Source: a virus. Taken from it: a DNA stretch of 35,872 bases. The first letter of the stretch is position 1. Every line of letters starts with the position of its first letter. The stretch spans positions 1 to 35,872 of the IMG/VR virus record IMGVR_UViG_3300042508_000497, one strand, 5' to 3'. The notes beneath the pieces were generated by a model. It ran no database searches and was not told where the DNA came from. It worked only from the letters and a program-made list of their open reading frames with translations. The position numbers and the translations under genes are program-made. This document shows, piece after piece, positions 8,979 through 18,998 of this stretch.

Positions 8979-9119
8979 CTACTCAAGGAGACTCCTTGTG
9001 TCGGAGAAAAAATCCTACTCAAGAGATTTTGACGTGTCCTACTCAAGAGAAAAACCTGTGCCCTACTCAAGAGAATCTGCGCCTCTCTACTCAAGGGATT
9101 TTGTGTCTGCCTACTCAAG
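8979..9119. repeat. Iteron-like array: six CTACTCAAG cores, five spaced exactly 24 bp
   Basis: CTACTCAAG occurs at 8979, 9015, 9039, 9063, 9087 and 9111. The last five are spaced exactly 24 bp; the first is 36 bp from the second. Four copies extend to CTACTCAAGAG, and each core holds the small dyad CTC-AA-GAG or a variant. The 12-nt spacers differ but share T-rich and GTGTC-like pieces. The first copy runs into the near-perfect palindrome CAAGGAG-A-CTCCTTG (8984-8998). The sixth copy supplies the TAG stop of the gene at 9111-9575. In lambda the small terminase binds repeated R sites (cosB) at this position, so cosB or another packaging site is the leading idea; a replication origin is the alternative. 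Confidence 0.9.
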
Positions 9120-9575
9120 AGCGGCCTCCTTAATCTCTCTGTACTTTATAGCGATTGGCTCAGCGTATCGCATGAACTCTTGCTTAGTTTCTTTTGACCA
9201 GGCTTGATGTTTGCTTCTGTTGGCGAACCATTGGCTAACCTTGATCAGCGGCCACATGAACGGCTTGCGCTCACTTGGTACGCTAGTCGTTATGGGGTCT
9301 GGCAGCATCTCTGCCCAGAGCATGACCTGTCTAACTACACTAGGCTCGCCTGTGCTTAGCTTGTGTTGGTGTGCAGCGACTCTTTCTAGTCGCTTGCCTT
9401 GTTCGTCAGTAAGGCCAGCTGTATCTAATAGCTTGGCTATGTCTTGGCCGGATGCTCTGGCCTCTGCGATAATAACGCCTGCCTTAGCTGCTAGTCCTAT
9501 GACTTCGCCTACCGCTTCTAAGGTGTGCTGACGCTTGTTAGCTAACTCTTTGACTACTTGTTTTAATGTTTGCAT
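9111..9575 (-). CDS. Helical protein of unknown function
   Basis: 154 aa, not recognised. It is mostly helical and charged with no signal peptide or membrane segment. Notable stretches are LEAVGEVIGLAAKAG (residues 19-33), LTDEQGKRLERVAAHQHKL (55-73) and a Trp-rich C-terminal half (FMWPLIKVSQWFAN). The ATG at 9575 overlaps the stop of the HTH gene by 13 nt, so both are in one operon. The TAG stop lies inside the sixth copy of the repeat array. Position between replication and packaging genes suggests a DNA-metabolism or packaging-linked role; this is inference only. Confidence 0.7.
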   Translation of the reverse strand: MQTLKQVVKELANKRQHTLEAVGEVIGLAAKAGVIIAEARASGQDIAKLLDTAGLTDEQGKRLERVAAHQHKLSTGEPSVVRQVMLWAEMLPDPITTSVPSERKPFMWPLIKVSQWFANRSKHQAWSKETKQEFMRYAEPIAIKYREIKEAALE

Positions 9576-12664: not shown

Positions 12665-12789
12665 CACTGCCCCATTCCCCAGCGCATGCGATTGGCGCGG
12701 GCCTCTCGCACGCAGTTGGCGTACTGCTCCGGCGTGTAGGTGCCGATGATGCGTCCAGAGAACATGGCTAGGAGATCCTGCAGGCTCAC
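12661..12789 (-). CDS. Very small hypothetical protein
   Basis: 42 aa. GTG at 12789 overlaps the upstream TGA as GTGA; the stop overlaps the next GTG in the same way. The sequence starts MSLQDLLAMFSGRIIGTYTP and ends in an Arg/Trp-rich stretch (RMRWGMGQW). Not recognised. It is supported only by the unbroken chain of 4-nt overlaps. Confidence 0.55.
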   Translation of the reverse strand: MSLQDLLAMFSGRIIGTYTPEQYANCVREARANRMRWGMGQW

Positions 12790-13025
12790 AGCACCGCCTT
12801 TGGCAACGGCCCTGCCAGTTTCCACACGTACTTTTTGCGGTCGTATTCCAGCGGGTAACCAAAGAAATCCCGCAGCAGATCCATGTCCCGCTGGATCGTT
12901 TTGTAACTGCATTCAAGCTCGGCCCCCAACCTGTAAGTGCTGGGTAGGGTCAGATTGCGTCGCAACTTGCCGACGATCACGCCCAGCCGCCGGAACGTAG
13001 GCCGTGTATCACCACGCTTTTTCAC
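12786..13025 (-). CDS. Small winged-helix (DeoR/WYL-type HTH) DNA-binding protein
   Basis: 79 aa from GTG at 13025, in a GTGA overlap with the upstream stop. Residues 10-75 match the HTH head of WYL/DeoR-type regulators: LGAELECSYKTIQRDMDLLR is the turn and recognition helix, and FFGYPLEYDRKKYVW is the wing. The WYL sensor domain is missing, so this is a stand-alone DNA-binding unit. It may regulate the early operon. No target is obvious. Confidence 0.75.
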   Translation of the reverse strand: MKKRGDTRPTFRRLGVIVGKLRRNLTLPSTYRLGAELECSYKTIQRDMDLLRDFFGYPLEYDRKKYVWKLAGPLPKAVL

Positions 13026-13438
13026 CTGCACACCTCCACCGTCGCCACCTTGGGCAACCGCATCGCGTTGAACTGCTTTTCGCTTGCGGCAAACACGTCC
13101 ACCACGGGCAACTTTCCACCGCTCGCCTTCTTGCTCTTTACTGCCGTGCCAGTATCCACGGCCACCCACTCCCGCTTGCCGTTTAGGATGCGGATCTTGC
13201 TCCACAGCGGAATGATGTCGGGATCGACGGCGCAGTGACGGCCAGCACGCAAACGTGTCCCAGTGCTGGATTGGTAGCGACTGCTCCACTCATCTTCACC
13301 CGGCCAGTAGCCAGTAATCCGCACCTTAATTTTCTTAACGTCGATCTTCTTGGCGATCGGGCGCAAATCGATCAGTGCGTTGCCTAGTTTACTGGTGCTG
13401 AACCCAAACAGCGCAAGGATAGAAAGCAGCATTCTCAT
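13022..13438 (-). CDS. Secreted 3D-domain protein (possible peptidoglycan-active)
   Basis: 138 aa. Residues 1-22 look like a signal peptide (MRMLLSILALFGFS). The rest resembles the 3D domain, a double-psi beta barrel seen in MltA, YabE and related lytic transglycosylases: AVDPDIIPLWS (70-80), WVAVDTGTAV (91-100) and PVVDVFAA (111-118) carry the conserved Asp residues (about 72, 95 and 114). The protein would leave the cytoplasm and act on cell wall. It sits in the early operon between a helical micro-protein and an HTH protein, far from the lysis cassette, and is coupled by ATGA and GTGA. A role in wall remodelling or superinfection exclusion is possible. Confidence 0.75.
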   Translation of the reverse strand: MRMLLSILALFGFSTSKLGNALIDLRPIAKKIDVKKIKVRITGYWPGEDEWSSRYQSSTGTRLRAGRHCAVDPDIIPLWSKIRILNGKREWVAVDTGTAVKSKKASGGKLPVVDVFAASEKQFNAMRLPKVATVEVCR

Positions 13439-16082: not shown

Positions 16083-16321
16083 CGCTGGGCGCTCCACATT
16101 CGGGCGACGGAGGGGTTAGGGTGGTAAGCAGGCTCCGCCGTGTACCCGCCGCGAATTAAAAAGGAATTTTGCTGGTAATGCTTTAGCTTAGATTCAGTTG
16201 CTACAGCCGCGTTACCATCTCGGCGTAAGTCGTTGTAGTGATAAGCCTCGGACGGGGTGGGATTTGAACCCACGGTACAATTACCTGATTTGATTTGATT
16301 GATTATAATTTGGGGAGTCAT
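16079..16321 (-). CDS. First gene of the early operon, crosses the attP core
   Basis: 80 aa from ATG at 16321, not recognised. The C-terminal 55 residues (GNAAVATESKLKHYQQNSF and what follows, with Tyr/Asn/Pro) look like a compact conserved unit. The stop overlaps the next ATG as ATGA, which supports it as real. The tRNA-like attP core (16249-16273) falls inside codons 17-25, so integration would cut off the first 16 codons. A GTG at 16271-16273, within the core, could restore a start in the prophage. No ribosome binding site precedes ATG 16321. Confidence 0.6.
   Translation of the reverse strand: MTPQIIINQIKSGNCTVGSNPTPSEAYHYNDLRRDGNAAVATESKLKHYQQNSFLIRGGYTAEPAYHPNPSVARMWSAQR
16249..16273 (-). 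other. attP: attP core: 3' end of a tRNA gene (tRNA-Ser-like)
   Basis: Read on the minus strand, bases 16273-16257 form a complete T-arm (stem GTGGG, loop TTCAAAT, stem CCCAC), then seven acceptor bases CCCGTCC and a G at the discriminator position. The rest of a tRNA (D-arm, anticodon arm) is absent. Such 3'-tRNA fragments next to an integrase are the usual crossover site of tRNA-targeting phages. A G discriminator and GTACC just before the T-arm, like a long variable arm, suggest tRNA-Ser. The integrase ATG is about 90 bp away. The real crossover segment may be longer than marked. Confidence 0.85.
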
Positions 16322-16350
16322 TGTATATTATTGCGCTAAACTGCCCAAAT

Positions 16351-16364
16351 GTTACCTTTGTAAC
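16351..16364. promoter_or_regulatory. Short inverted repeat at the integrase start
   Basis: GTTAC (16351-16355) and GTAAC (16360-16364) are inverted around CTTT, ending 1 nt before the integrase ATG. It may be an operator or an integrase arm-type site; a 5-bp stem could also be chance. It is in the 44-bp gap between the two divergent starts at 16321 and 16366, which must hold or adjoin both promoters. Confidence 0.3.
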
Positions 16365-16365
16365 T

Positions 16366-17463
16366 ATGGCCTATTCCTACATTAAGAAAGGCAATCCGTG
16401 GTTTTACATTCGTTTTAAAGACCCAACTGGAAAATGGCGTAGCAAAAGCACCCGCTACCGAATCGACAATACTCTGCATCGCGCAAAGGCAACGGCTGAC
16501 GCAGCTCGACTTGGCGTTAACGAAAAGCAAAAAGATTGTGGCCACGACTGGGTTGATGATTTGATTGAAAATCACCCCGTTTGCCCTCTGACAAAAGTTT
16601 ATTACAAAAATTCGTGGCGTCATCTGGCGAGATTTATTAGTGAGAAAAAGATTAGTCTGCAAGCGTTTTCTGCAAATGATTGTGAGATTTATTTGCGATG
16701 GCGCCAAAGCCTTCCCCGCACCTCCGGCGGCAAGGCTGGACGCAACCAAGCCTGCCAAGATCTGAAGATTCTTAAATGGATTCACCGCCAAGGCCGACTG
16801 CTGGGCAAAATGGACTCCGTTGCCCTTTTGGATTACAGAATTAAAAGGGGGCCGATAGCCCGCGTTAAACCTGTCTTTTCGGACAATGAGATTAAAATCA
16901 CCCGGAAAGCTCTCGCTGTGGATGGCGTGCCCGAATGGATGCGAGTCAGCTTTGAGATTGCCTTGGCTACCGGCTGCCGACTTCGTGAAACACAGATCCC
17001 GCTTGAGTGCGTGGATCTGAAGAATCGCGTCCTTACCTTTCCCTGCCCCAAGGGTGGCACCGGCAAATCCTTCTCCATTCCTATCCCGGCCGCCATCGAA
17101 CCCATGCTGGCTAGAATGAAGGCCGAGGGCCGCCAGATTACTTGTGAAGTTCCCCGCACGCGAGCTTCGCTTTGCTGGCGTAGGCTCTTGGATATTTGCG
17201 GGCTTAAAAGGCATTGCTTCCATTCCCTTCGGGTAACCCGAGTGACGAGACTGCGGCTTTCAGGCTGTTCTCAATCTGTCGCCATGAGACTTGTGAACCA
17301 CTCCTCGACGCTAGTGCATGAGCTTTACCAACGGCACTGCGTAGACGATCTGCGGAACGCGGTGAATTTAGGCCAGTCTGCATCAGCCTCCACTGATCAA
17401 AGTCAGACGGAATTACCTTACCCGCAAGCATCGGAAAGCCTGTCAGTTCCCGCATTTGCCTAA
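16366..17463 (+). CDS. int: Tyrosine recombinase (integrase)
   Basis: 365 aa from ATG at 16366 (MAYSYIKKGNPWFY). The frame is open further upstream, but family members begin like this. Residues 1-60 suit the arm-binding domain, 75-165 the SAM-like core-binding domain, and 170-330 the catalytic domain. Catalytic residues: Arg 205 in ATGCRLRE, Lys 229 in PCPKGGTG, His 286 and Arg 289 in HSLR, His 312 in NHSS, and the nucleophile Tyr 321 in ELYQRH. All are present, so it should be active. It would join attP to a host tRNA gene. It is one of only two plus-strand genes, and its last 260 nt are antisense to an HTH frame. Confidence 0.95.
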   Translation: MAYSYIKKGNPWFYIRFKDPTGKWRSKSTRYRIDNTLHRAKATADAARLGVNEKQKDCGHDWVDDLIENHPVCPLTKVYYKNSWRHLARFISEKKISLQAFSANDCEIYLRWRQSLPRTSGGKAGRNQACQDLKILKWIHRQGRLLGKMDSVALLDYRIKRGPIARVKPVFSDNEIKITRKALAVDGVPEWMRVSFEIALATGCRLRETQIPLECVDLKNRVLTFPCPKGGTGKSFSIPIPAAIEPMLARMKAEGRQITCEVPRTRASLCWRRLLDICGLKRHCFHSLRVTRVTRLRLSGCSQSVAMRLVNHSSTLVHELYQRHCVDDLRNAVNLGQSASASTDQSQTELPYPQASESLSVPAFA

Positions 17464-17569
17464 TCCGCACATAGCCGAGGCCGTAAGCGGCACCTAATTG
17501 GCGTAGTGAAAGAGCTCGGTTCTCCTGGCGGAGTTTCATGGCCGTATCGTTGAGACGCACTGAGCTCAT
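17204..17569 (-). CDS. MerR/AlpA-like HTH protein antisense to the integrase end
   Basis: 121 aa from ATG at 17569, 6 nt after the stop of the RHH gene. Residues 12-60 look like a MerR/terminase-type winged helix: RALSLRQLGAAYGLGYVRIR is the HTH and KVIPSDFDQWRL resembles the wing and Trp end seen in excisionase and AlpA-like heads. The rest (helical, Ser/Arg-rich) is less convincing and lies opposite the integrase coding sequence. It could be an excisionase or second regulator. The 3' half may not be conserved, and there is no clear ribosome binding site, so the gene could be shorter or false. Confidence 0.5.
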   Translation of the reverse strand: MSSVRLNDTAMKLRQENRALSLRQLGAAYGLGYVRIRQMRELTGFPMLAGKVIPSDFDQWRLMQTGLNSPRSADRLRSAVGKAHALASRSGSQVSWRQIENSLKAAVSSLGLPEGNGSNAF

Positions 17570-17575
17570 CAATGT

Positions 17576-17737
17576 CTAGCTTTGCTCTCCCGCCGCTCTT
17601 GCGAGCAGTTGGGTAATGAGCTGAGAAAGTGACAACCGACGAATAGCGGCCAATTTTTGTGACGCCTTTTTCACTCTAACCGGAAGAACAATGTTGGTCT
17701 TTTCAGACTTTAAACCGCTGAGTGGTCGGCGAGGCAT
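17576..17737 (-). CDS. Ribbon-helix-helix regulator, minus-strand partner
   Basis: 53 aa. Pattern of a CopG/Arc-type repressor: a beta strand KTNIVLPV (about 13-20), helix A RVKKASQKLAAIRR and helix B LSLSQLITQLLARAAG. ATG at 17737 has AAAGG 4 nt upstream. It faces another RHH gene across about 105 bp that hold repeated TACGC/GCGTA sites; one of those sites overlaps its own start codon. By analogy with cI/cro-like switches, one RHH protein may favour lysogeny and the other lysis. Which does which is not visible. Confidence 0.8.
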   Translation of the reverse strand: MPRRPLSGLKSEKTNIVLPVRVKKASQKLAAIRRLSLSQLITQLLARAAGEQS

Positions 17738-17832
17738 ACGCCTTTGCTACGCATACACGGCGTATTAGCAATACTTTTCTTTTGGTCATTAACTTTTCTT
17801 TTTAAACTTGAATGCGTATTTATTACGCATAC
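17734..17832. promoter_or_regulatory. Operator cluster between divergent RHH genes
   Basis: Five TACGC/GCGTA half-sites: 17737-17741 (+), 17748-17752 (+), 17760-17764 (-), 17814-17818 (-), 17824-17828 (+). TACGCATAC is identical at 17748 and 17824. ATGCGTA-TTTAT-TACGCAT (17812-17830) is a perfect 7-bp inverted repeat. A possible rightward promoter is TTGAAT (17808) with TACAAT (17830), 16 bp apart, so that operator lies inside the promoter. These are the expected targets of the RHH proteins, which bind short repeated half-sites. Confidence 0.75.
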
Positions 17833-17842
17833 AATGACCCTA

Positions 17843-17986
17843 ATGAAAAAGGTCAAAACTAACCTTACTATTGACCCAAAAGTGAAACGCAACGGCGAGC
17901 GAATGGCCAAGAAGGGTGGATTAAGTTTATCTGCCTTTATCACCACTCTGCTCGTCAAGGAGCTGGCAAAAGAAAATAGACGCTAG
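17843..17986 (+). CDS. Ribbon-helix-helix regulator, plus-strand partner
   Basis: 47 aa from ATG at 17843 (50 aa if ATG at 17834 is used). RHH pattern: strand KTNLTID, helix A PKVKRNGERMAKKGG, helix B LSLSAFITTLLVKEL. The predicted promoter TTGAAT-TACAAT would start RNA at about 17842, giving a leaderless or nearly leaderless message from ATG 17843; no ribosome binding site is seen. Its own promoter holds a perfect inverted repeat, so autoregulation is likely. Its TAG stop sits in CTAG and overlaps the TAG of the convergent gene at 17983. Confidence 0.8.
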   Translation: MKKVKTNLTIDPKVKRNGERMAKKGGLSLSAFITTLLVKELAKENRR

Positions 17987-18270
17987 CTTTTGCGTGTTTT
18001 AATAGGAGTAAGCCGATAATGCGGCACCCTGCGGCAATGCCCTACTTTACTGCCCCGGTCGCATATTTTGATCCTAATCGAAAACACTTTTCTCTCTGCC
18101 CCACCAGATTTGATCATTCGCGTTAAGACCTTGTTTGTGTAGACCGGCGTTTTACCCCACAGCTTTGCAATATCAATTTTCGTAAACCATCCCGGCGGCA
18201 CCACCTCCTCCCGATCCCCGGCCACATAGGCGTCTAGGGCAGCCGCCCAATCTACACCGGGTATCGCCAT
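17983..18270 (-). CDS. Small winged-helix-like protein, last gene of the late operon
   Basis: 95 aa. ATG at 18270 (MAIPGVDWAAALDAYVAG) is chosen because GGAGG stands 4 nt upstream, although the frame is open further. Residues 30-60 (WFTKIDIAKLWGKTPVYTNK) look like an HTH, followed by a basic region (RKVFSIRIK) that may be a wing. It overlaps the metallophosphoesterase stop by 19 nt. It may regulate the neighbouring lysogeny region. Not recognised as a known family. Confidence 0.7.
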   Translation of the reverse strand: MAIPGVDWAAALDAYVAGDREEVVPPGWFTKIDIAKLWGKTPVYTNKVLTRMIKSGGAERKVFSIRIKICDRGSKVGHCRRVPHYRLTPIKTRKS

Positions 18271-18998
18271 ACGCCTCCTACTGGGGTTAGCACGTTCACC
18301 GTACACCCTTCCCCGCTCTCTGCGTACTCGCCCCACGCCACTCCGTGCTGCCACCTCGTAACCGATCGCTGGCGCCTAGCATAGTGCATGCTTGGAATAT
18401 CGGCTAGGCAACCGATTGACCAGCCGACGGGTGCTCCGAAACTACGTCCCGCAGTTCGATCTATTCTGTGCAGATGCCCCATAACGATAGGCTTCTGAAC
18501 CATCTCCACGTGATCACGCACTGCGCTAGATTCTGAAAACATATATCCATGGCCAAATGCCGTTCCACCCAGAATGCGCCAGCCTTTCTCAATATCGTAA
18601 GGTACATATTGCGCTTTCAAATCTTTGCAGGTGTTGTGGATCTCGCTAAGTGCAGACGTGCAACAGTGCGCTACGATGGCGCTGGGAGAGTATTGCAACG
18701 CTGTTAGACGATGCTCGTGATTCCCTTGGAAAATCCAGTTAGCGCCTAGTTCTCGAAGAAAATTAAGCCCAGCGTCAAAGTCCTCACGGATTGAGGATGT
18801 GCGCTCGGGCGAGTCTGGGTCTTTTCTGGCACTGCCCATCAGCCCGGATAGATCCACGAAATCGCCCAAGTGCAGCGTCATATCCGGCTGCCACCGGCGC
18901 TTCATTTCAATAGCGGCCTTGCAGGCAGCCGCATTCGCCAGGTGACCGTGTGAGCAGCTGACCGCCAGCCACTTTTTCCATTTGCGGATTACCTTCAC
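18252..18998 (-). CDS. Calcineurin-like metallophosphoesterase with altered first motif
   Basis: 248 aa from GTG at 18998 (GTGA overlap). The metallophosphoesterase motifs are present in order: HLGDFVD (43-49), FQGNHEHR (90-97), AFGHGY (147-152) and MGHLHR (173-178). The first motif, normally D-x-H, reads SCSHGH, so the metal-binding Asp is replaced by Cys 15 while His 17 stays. It may still bind metal or be weakly active. Phage enzymes of this kind act on nucleic acids, cyclic nucleotides or protein phosphates; the substrate is not visible. It is in a late accessory block with a MazG-like gene. Confidence 0.85.
   Translation of the reverse strand: MKVIRKWKKWLAVSCSHGHLANAAACKAAIEMKRRWQPDMTLHLGDFVDLSGLMGSARKDPDSPERTSSIREDFDAGLNFLRELGANWIFQGNHEHRLTALQYSPSAIVAHCCTSALSEIHNTCKDLKAQYVPYDIEKGWRILGGTAFGHGYMFSESSAVRDHVEMVQKPIVMGHLHRIDRTAGRSFGAPVGWSIGCLADIPSMHYARRQRSVTRWQHGVAWGEYAESGEGCTVNVLTPVGGVWRYPV

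Follow-up and report, generated by a model that had tools for sequence, protein, structure and literature searches.

A divergent pair of ribbon-helix-helix genes around conserved operators is a probable lysogeny switch in a family of environmental phages

The window analyzed here is the 35,872-bp virus record IMGVR_UViG_3300042508_000497, taken at its whole length. It carries terminase, portal- and capsid-like genes, primase/helicase, lysis genes, and a tyrosine integrase, and its genes are almost all encoded on the minus strand. Only two clearly depart from this, the integrase (positions 16366 to 17463, plus strand; PHROG 1 integrase, E = 4.5e-28) and a small ribbon-helix-helix (RHH) gene, RHHp (17843 to 17986, plus strand, 47 amino acids). 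RHHp points away from a second small RHH gene, RHHm (17576 to 17737, minus strand, 53 amino acids), across 105 bp, an arrangement already described in the initial annotation. RHHm leads a minus-strand operon and is followed by HTHm (17204 to 17572, minus strand), a winged-helix gene of 122 amino acids. An attachment core (16250 to 16275, minus strand; GGACGGGGTGGGATTTGAACCCACGG on the plus strand) resembles the 3′ end of a minus-strand tRNA gene. Elsewhere in the window (9015 to 9121), the gap between the terminase small subunit gene and the gene that follows holds five copies of CTACTCAAGAG at a period of exactly 24 bp. Two related contigs (G394 and G396) have similar arrays at the same place, several relatives have 23-bp-spaced repeats of another motif, and the CTACTCAAGAG array may represent packaging or replication iterons.

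Searches of environmental phage contigs recovered 65 loci with RHHp as the query and 75 with the integrase, and in most of them RHHp, RHHm, and HTHm all stand beside the integrase. Among named phages, the integrase query had no match and the RHHp query no useful match. Genome scans returned a single close bacterial integrase relative, on a contig that stops short of the switch position. This integrase, 54% identical to that of the window, is encoded in a Verrucomicrobia metagenome-assembled genome contig (L148), together with further frames resembling early genes of the window. The initial annotation drew its comparison with lambda-like phages; by its closest gene matches, the phage is not a lambda relative. 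The phages of this family are temperate, and Verrucomicrobiota bacteria are their probable hosts.

Both small proteins had been taken for RHH proteins from their sequence, and profile comparisons bear this out. RHHp matches PHROG 582 (Arc-like repressor, E = 3.6e-5), and a combined RHHp and RHHm profile finds a solved CopG-family RHH protein (E = 7e-4). The RHHp profile recovers RHHm in 22 of 24 genomes (E = 1e-7 to 1e-11), and the RHHm profile recovers RHHp in the reciprocal search. Because each profile finds the other gene, the two are, by sequence comparison, homologous members of one RHH (MetJ/Arc/CopG) family. An AlphaFold2 monomer model of RHHm places helices at residues 20 to 32 and 37 to 48 as the two helices of the RHH fold (pLDDT 77); Arc is the best Foldseek match of this model and nearly all other top matches are RHH proteins, with none of the E-values significant for so short a chain. 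Conservation of one frame alone, named beforehand as counting against a paired switch, was not what we found: both frames are under purifying selection, with a median dN/dS of 0.12 for RHHm and 0.07 for RHHp (0.09 for the integrase as a yardstick), and RHHm is conserved in the relatives that retain the module. The search in related phages that had been proposed as a check likewise recovered both the pair and its sites, and operator letters could be compared across 53 distinct sequences.

An orphan antitoxin-like or copy-number regulator pair of the CcdA/DUF6364/CopG type, engaged in plain autoregulation with no role in lysogeny, would fit the Pfam matches of RHHp and RHHm to CcdA, DUF6364, and CopG-type RHH families, all of them weak and below the curated cutoffs. 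A chromosomal match of the same profile (locus L284) lies, by eye, near VapC-like toxin genes. We nevertheless regard this explanation as highly improbable: none of the phages examined has a toxin-like gene beside the pair, four relatives described below have lost the pair along with the integrase, and simple autoregulation needs no two divergent homologues with common sites.

The stretch between the genes holds five TACGC/GCGTA words (at 17737, 17748, 17760, 17814, and 17824), as the initial annotation had counted, where 0.19 would be expected in 106 bp (Poisson probability, ∼2e-6); nowhere else in the window do at least four such words cluster. Written as 6-bp units (TACGCR/YGCGTA), they start at 17737, 17748, and 17759 and at 17813 and 17824, with a step of exactly 11 bp within each cluster. 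Half-site A (TACGCC, 17737 to 17742, plus strand) lies over the RHHm start codon, as had been claimed, and begins on the complement of its ATG. Half-site B (TACGCA, 17748 to 17753, plus strand) follows 11 bp from A in the same orientation, and half-site C (GGCGTA, 17759 to 17764, minus strand) lies 11 bp from B in the opposite orientation, over a putative minus-strand −10 element. Half-site D (TGCGTA, 17813 to 17818, minus strand) and half-site E (TACGCA, 17824 to 17829, plus strand), 11 bp apart, are the arms of a perfect inverted repeat, TGCGTA-N5-TACGCA (17813 to 17829), located between the −35 and −10 of the plus-strand promoter; the repeat was correctly placed in the initial annotation and is the only perfect copy in the window. 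The identical words that had been pointed out are also real, since TACGCATAC occurs twice in the window, both times in this intergenic region (17748 and 17824).

Conservation is concentrated on these sites. Mean identity over the 53 distinct related sequences is 97.7% in the half-site columns, 19 of the 25 being invariant, compared with 80.6% at other intergenic positions, and none of 20,000 random placements matched the conservation of the half-sites. Positions 17737 to 17742 (A) and 17748 to 17752 (B) are invariant, as are 17761, 17762, and 17764 in C (17760 and 17763 being kept in 45 to 46 sequences) and 17815, 17816, and 17818 in D (17814 and 17817 in 51 to 52). The inverted repeat, or a variant with the same spacing, is present in 51 of the 53; its spacer varies (TTTAT, ATAAA, or TAAAT), while the arms and the length are mostly kept. 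The 11-bp step, one helical turn, is found in all four sequence types of the region (I, Ib, II, and III). Every comparative test made thus supports half-sites A to E as conserved operators. The full array was found nowhere else in the window, and no second operator array was seen in the genome. Pairs of half-sites spaced by 11 bp in several genomes were rejected as further operators, as they fall in a glycosyltransferase coding region and track its codons; likewise, allowing three mismatches to the inverted repeat gave 15 matches in the window, no more than chance predicts (15.2). Looping between the two clusters was also set aside as an essential feature, for the distance between them is mostly constant yet ∼19 bp shorter in one relative.

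The two clusters coincide with candidate promoters on either side. A promoter scan identified P(+) at 17808 to 17835 on the plus strand (TTGAAT-16 nt-TACAAT, 9 of 12 consensus letters), which is conserved in relatives and is the only plus-strand promoter-like site that the scan found within 14.9 to 18.7 kb. Its −35 (TTGAAT, 17808 to 17813) shares one base with the inverted repeat and its −10 (TACAAT) lies at 17830 to 17835, so that D-E fills the gap between the two. On the other side, A-B-C spans the stretch from the putative P(−) −10 (GCTAAT, 17764 to 17769, minus strand) to the RHHm start codon. This −10 was read by eye from the alignment and went undetected in the promoter scan; GACAAT replaces it in some relatives, the −35 is weak, and P(−) is a poor match to the consensus. 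An in-frame ATG lies inside the P(+) −10 at 17834, and the predicted RHHp start codon (ATG, 17843) falls only 6 to 8 nt past the −10 in all 53 sequences, for which reason the mRNA is expected to be leaderless. In lambda, the leaderless cI mRNA originates from PRM. The RHHp mRNA is predicted to be leaderless like that of lambda cI, which is named among leaderless mRNAs (PMC9031893).

Behind RHHm, the final 260 bp of HTHm are antisense to the 3′ end of the integrase gene. Residues 2 to 67 of HTHm are under purifying selection (dN/dS, 0.16 to 0.25) and residues 68 to 122 are not; within the coding overlap (17204 to 17463), the HTHm side is constrained at residues 38 to 67 and unconstrained at 68 to 122. 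We therefore rejected HTHm as a conserved protein of 122 amino acids, as its last 55 residues are unconstrained and merely mirror the integrase. The HTHm model (pLDDT, ∼87 to 90 over residues 11 to 60) weakly resembles the phage Pukovnik Xis (Z score, 5.2) and the RdfS excisionase (4.9) in VIA-align comparisons, scores that are tied with those of a terminase-related (viral DNA-packaging protein) domain, Rex, and MerR. The Foldseek search gave no significant match, and the window HTHm has no family match at the thresholds used. From its modeled fold, HTHm is a probable excisionase. The 26-bp attachment core is nearly invariant in an alignment of 60 sequences and also occurs, with one difference, beside the L148 integrase; ARAGORN found no complete tRNA there, as expected of a partial copy. 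An inverted repeat (TGTTACC..TTGTAAC, 16347 to 16365) just 5′ of the integrase ATG is also well conserved in that alignment. The attachment core separates the switch and the integrase from the early operon, so in an integrated prophage P(−) would not lead into the replication genes, and circular DNA would be needed for its transcript to arrive at the early genes. Once integrated, the phage would have these genes immediately downstream of a host tRNA gene and severed from P(−). This placement possibly provides integration-dependent control.

Such a layout raises the idea that the pair governs integration and excision alone, by setting the level of the excisionase-like gene, with the lytic genes silenced in some other way, for instance by their physical separation from P(−) after integration. 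The modeled winged-helix protein behind RHHm with its weak matches to known excisionases, the antisense overlap of this operon with the integrase gene, the attachment core that parts it from the early operon, and the restriction of the operators to the RHHm operon would all suit that idea. We consider it unlikely, however, because the excisionase assignment depends on fold matches tied with other winged helices and because of a second RHH pair found in a bacterial chromosome. An RHH profile search of 387 Verrucomicrobiota genomes yielded a single further clear case, a prophage located at tRNA-Arg in genome G083 with a divergent RHH pair (locus L281, 9105 to 9594, both strands) whose genes are 79 bp apart, with one TGCGCA site towards each gene. 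This pair stands between the integrase at tRNA-Arg, towards which the plus-strand RHH gene is directed, and a RecT/nuclease operon; the minus-strand RHH gene is followed on the same strand by some frames and then by RecT and a PDDEXK nuclease, as expected downstream of an early lytic promoter. A place between integrase and recombination genes is the usual position of a repressor/Cro switch. On the far side of the prophage, no direct repeat of the tRNA end was found in the stretches examined, and a 12.5-kb repeat at both ends of the contig is probably an assembly overlap. Two other chromosomal matches (G130 and G338) were rejected as relatives of the switch because they lack a convincing divergent partner; the latter lies near VapC-like genes.

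In some phages, the switch cassette has been replaced. Six phages (L085, L086, L096, L106, L107, and L126) carry this replacement, which we designate type II, and two of these were compared with the window gene by gene. The neighbors are 90 to 92% (integrase), 82 to 89% (winged-helix gene), and 87 to 90% (phosphoesterase) identical; the switch proteins are ∼58% (RHHm) and 43 to 48% (RHHp) identical. The type II half-site reads TGCGCA instead of TACGCA in both clusters with the 11-bp step retained, and both type II proteins have TN(I/L)YL in the predicted DNA-contacting strand in place of TN(I/L)(T/V)(I/L), a parallel change. Exchange of both proteins along with their sites, while the flanks stay conserved, has the look of a heteroimmune cassette swap. 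In types Ib and III, RHHm is altered more than RHHp and A-B-C more than D-E, which hints that A-B-C tracks RHHm, with few independent changes behind the pattern. Immediately after RHHp, two type II phages (L086 from 6694 and L096 from 6691) have an additional plus-strand frame whose start resembles a signal peptide; the window has no such frame.

The module has also been lost. In three relatives (G002 to G004, with contigs 87 to 93% identical to each other), most of the integrase, the attachment core, HTHm, RHHm, the operators, and RHHp are gone, and the remaining early and lysis genes under comparison are undamaged; G005 has a separate deletion from within the integrase to within RHHp. These two separate deletion classes drop the RHH pair along with integrase function. 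In loci L254, L256, and L258 (records G002 to G004), a 190-bp integrase remnant is seen between the early and lysis genes. Because the deletion phages lack P(−) yet keep their early genes intact, P(−) is not indispensable for them. We propose that G002 to G005 are lytic deletion derivatives like mycobacteriophage D29, in which natural loss of the repressor region gave a lytic descendant of a temperate parent (PMC5712189). Unlike in these phages, the D29 repressor is of the helix-turn-helix (HTH) type and the integration apparatus is kept; the integrase is broken in G002 to G005, and the attachment core is also gone in G002 to G004.

Taken as a whole, the evidence makes it likely that two homologous RHH proteins form the lysogeny switch of a temperate phage family and that this stretch is its immunity region; the position beside the integrase and attachment core counts in favor. 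Several observations count against this reading. One phage (L127/L208) keeps the integrase and attachment core with no RHH pair at the switch position, and in L208 (5965 to 7330) neither the pair nor HTHm is found behind the integrase. RHHp and RHHm are too small for a RecA-type self-cleavage domain, P(−) is a poor consensus promoter and is dispensable in the deletion phages, and the attachment core intervenes between the switch and the early operon. Within the lysogeny-switch reading, RHHp, at the CI-like position, would be the lysogenic repressor, made from a leaderless mRNA, and RHHm, at the Cro-like position, the lytic-side repressor and first gene of the operon with HTHm. Transcription from P(−) would produce RHHm and HTHm before continuing antisense across the integrase gene. 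Dimers of RHHp or of RHHm would insert β-ribbons into TACGC half-sites one helical turn apart, and neighboring half-sites would be bound cooperatively. Occupation of A-B-C would block P(−) and that of D-E would block P(+), so that whichever protein leads would silence the gene of the other. DNA binding by the two proteins, their mutual repression, and their CI-like and Cro-like roles are predicted from sequence and arrangement.

In Salmonella phage P22, the genes of the small RHH repressors Mnt and Arc diverge from a common operator region, and Arc works through half-sites that are paired at a distance of about one helical turn. Mnt represses arc and ant, and Arc inhibits mnt; the pair controls the antirepressor gene ant and merely tunes the primary C2/Cro region (PMC11016777). 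The present module resembles this immI region in having operators flanked by two divergent RHH repressor genes; moreover, Arc is the best structural match of RHHm, and family members match the PHROG Arc-like repressor. By the same precedent, the RHH pair could be a secondary immunity module that tunes a separate primary repressor elsewhere in the genome, and other winged-helix or HTH-like frames do exist in the window (12786 to 13289, HTH_11, E = 4e-4; and 17983 to 18354, very weak). Relatives of both frames persist, though, in the G002-type phages without integrase and attachment core, so the frames are not specific to lysogeny. Neither a CI/Cro pair nor an antirepressor-like domain was found; Pfam and PHROGs searches of the early genes detected no CI/Cro-type HTH pair, a scope in which a very divergent HTH repressor could escape. 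The type II swap, in addition, exchanges the region as it would an immunity cassette. A secondary role is therefore unlikely in our estimation. Unlike the P22 pair, a secondary region with ant as its target beside an HTH-type primary switch, the module has a winged-helix gene downstream and adjoins the integrase and attachment core, and its similarity to Arc/Mnt is at the fold level only. We do not class it as immI because it lacks ant and the searches turned up no separate HTH immunity region.

With lambda CI/Cro, the region would share divergently transcribed repressors, common operators, heteroimmune cassette swaps, and lytic derivatives upon loss. It differs in having RHH proteins, expected by analogy to bind through a β-ribbon, where lambda has the HTH proteins CI and Cro; in the lack of a cleavage or oligomerization domain; and in half-sites grouped three plus two at 11-bp steps, where lambda has three 17-bp operators. 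A precedent for an RHH protein of the 50-amino-acid scale as the main lysogeny regulator of a virus is F55 of SSV1, a 55-amino-acid protein that maintains lysogeny by binding 11-nt sites repeated in its own promoter and in early promoters (PMC9608457). F55 is, however, a single RHH regulator of an archaeal virus without a divergent RHH partner and has sites in several promoters, whereas the phage sites are confined to a single region. The module would thus work by its anatomy like lambda CI/Cro with RHH proteins, while by its components it appears closest to P22 Mnt/Arc.

A stronger version of the lysogeny-switch reading, to which we give even chances, holds that the pair is the sole primary lysis-lysogeny switch, in which two RHH repressors of one ancestry compete for the same 11-bp-phased half-sites and superinfection immunity types come about when both proteins and the half-site letters are exchanged together. 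It includes our inference that the pair is the only immunity system of these phages. As far as we know, HTH repressors underlie the primary lysogeny switches that have been well studied in bacterial phages, and P22 Mnt/Arc is the one well-studied divergent RHH pair, an accessory module. The literature searched, outside which most subscription journals lay, contained no report of a primary phage switch of two RHH proteins. The remark in the initial annotation that a switch with two RHH partners is unusual consequently holds in part: P22 immI is a precedent for the pair itself, and what sets the present pair apart is that it is apparently the only switch in its genomes, that its versions look heteroimmune, and that the repressor mRNA is predicted to be leaderless.

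If the lysogeny-switch reading is true, these phages carry a complete and compact RHH/RHH switch with natural heteroimmune variants, and the switch design would have been reached with another fold; if the pair is also the sole primary switch, the CI/Cro fold would not be essential to a lambda-like switch. The region would then offer a test system of ∼410 bp for how homologous repressors share operators without confusion. The analysis also provides a likely function for a gene pair present in about 65 environmental phage contigs from a poorly studied host phylum.
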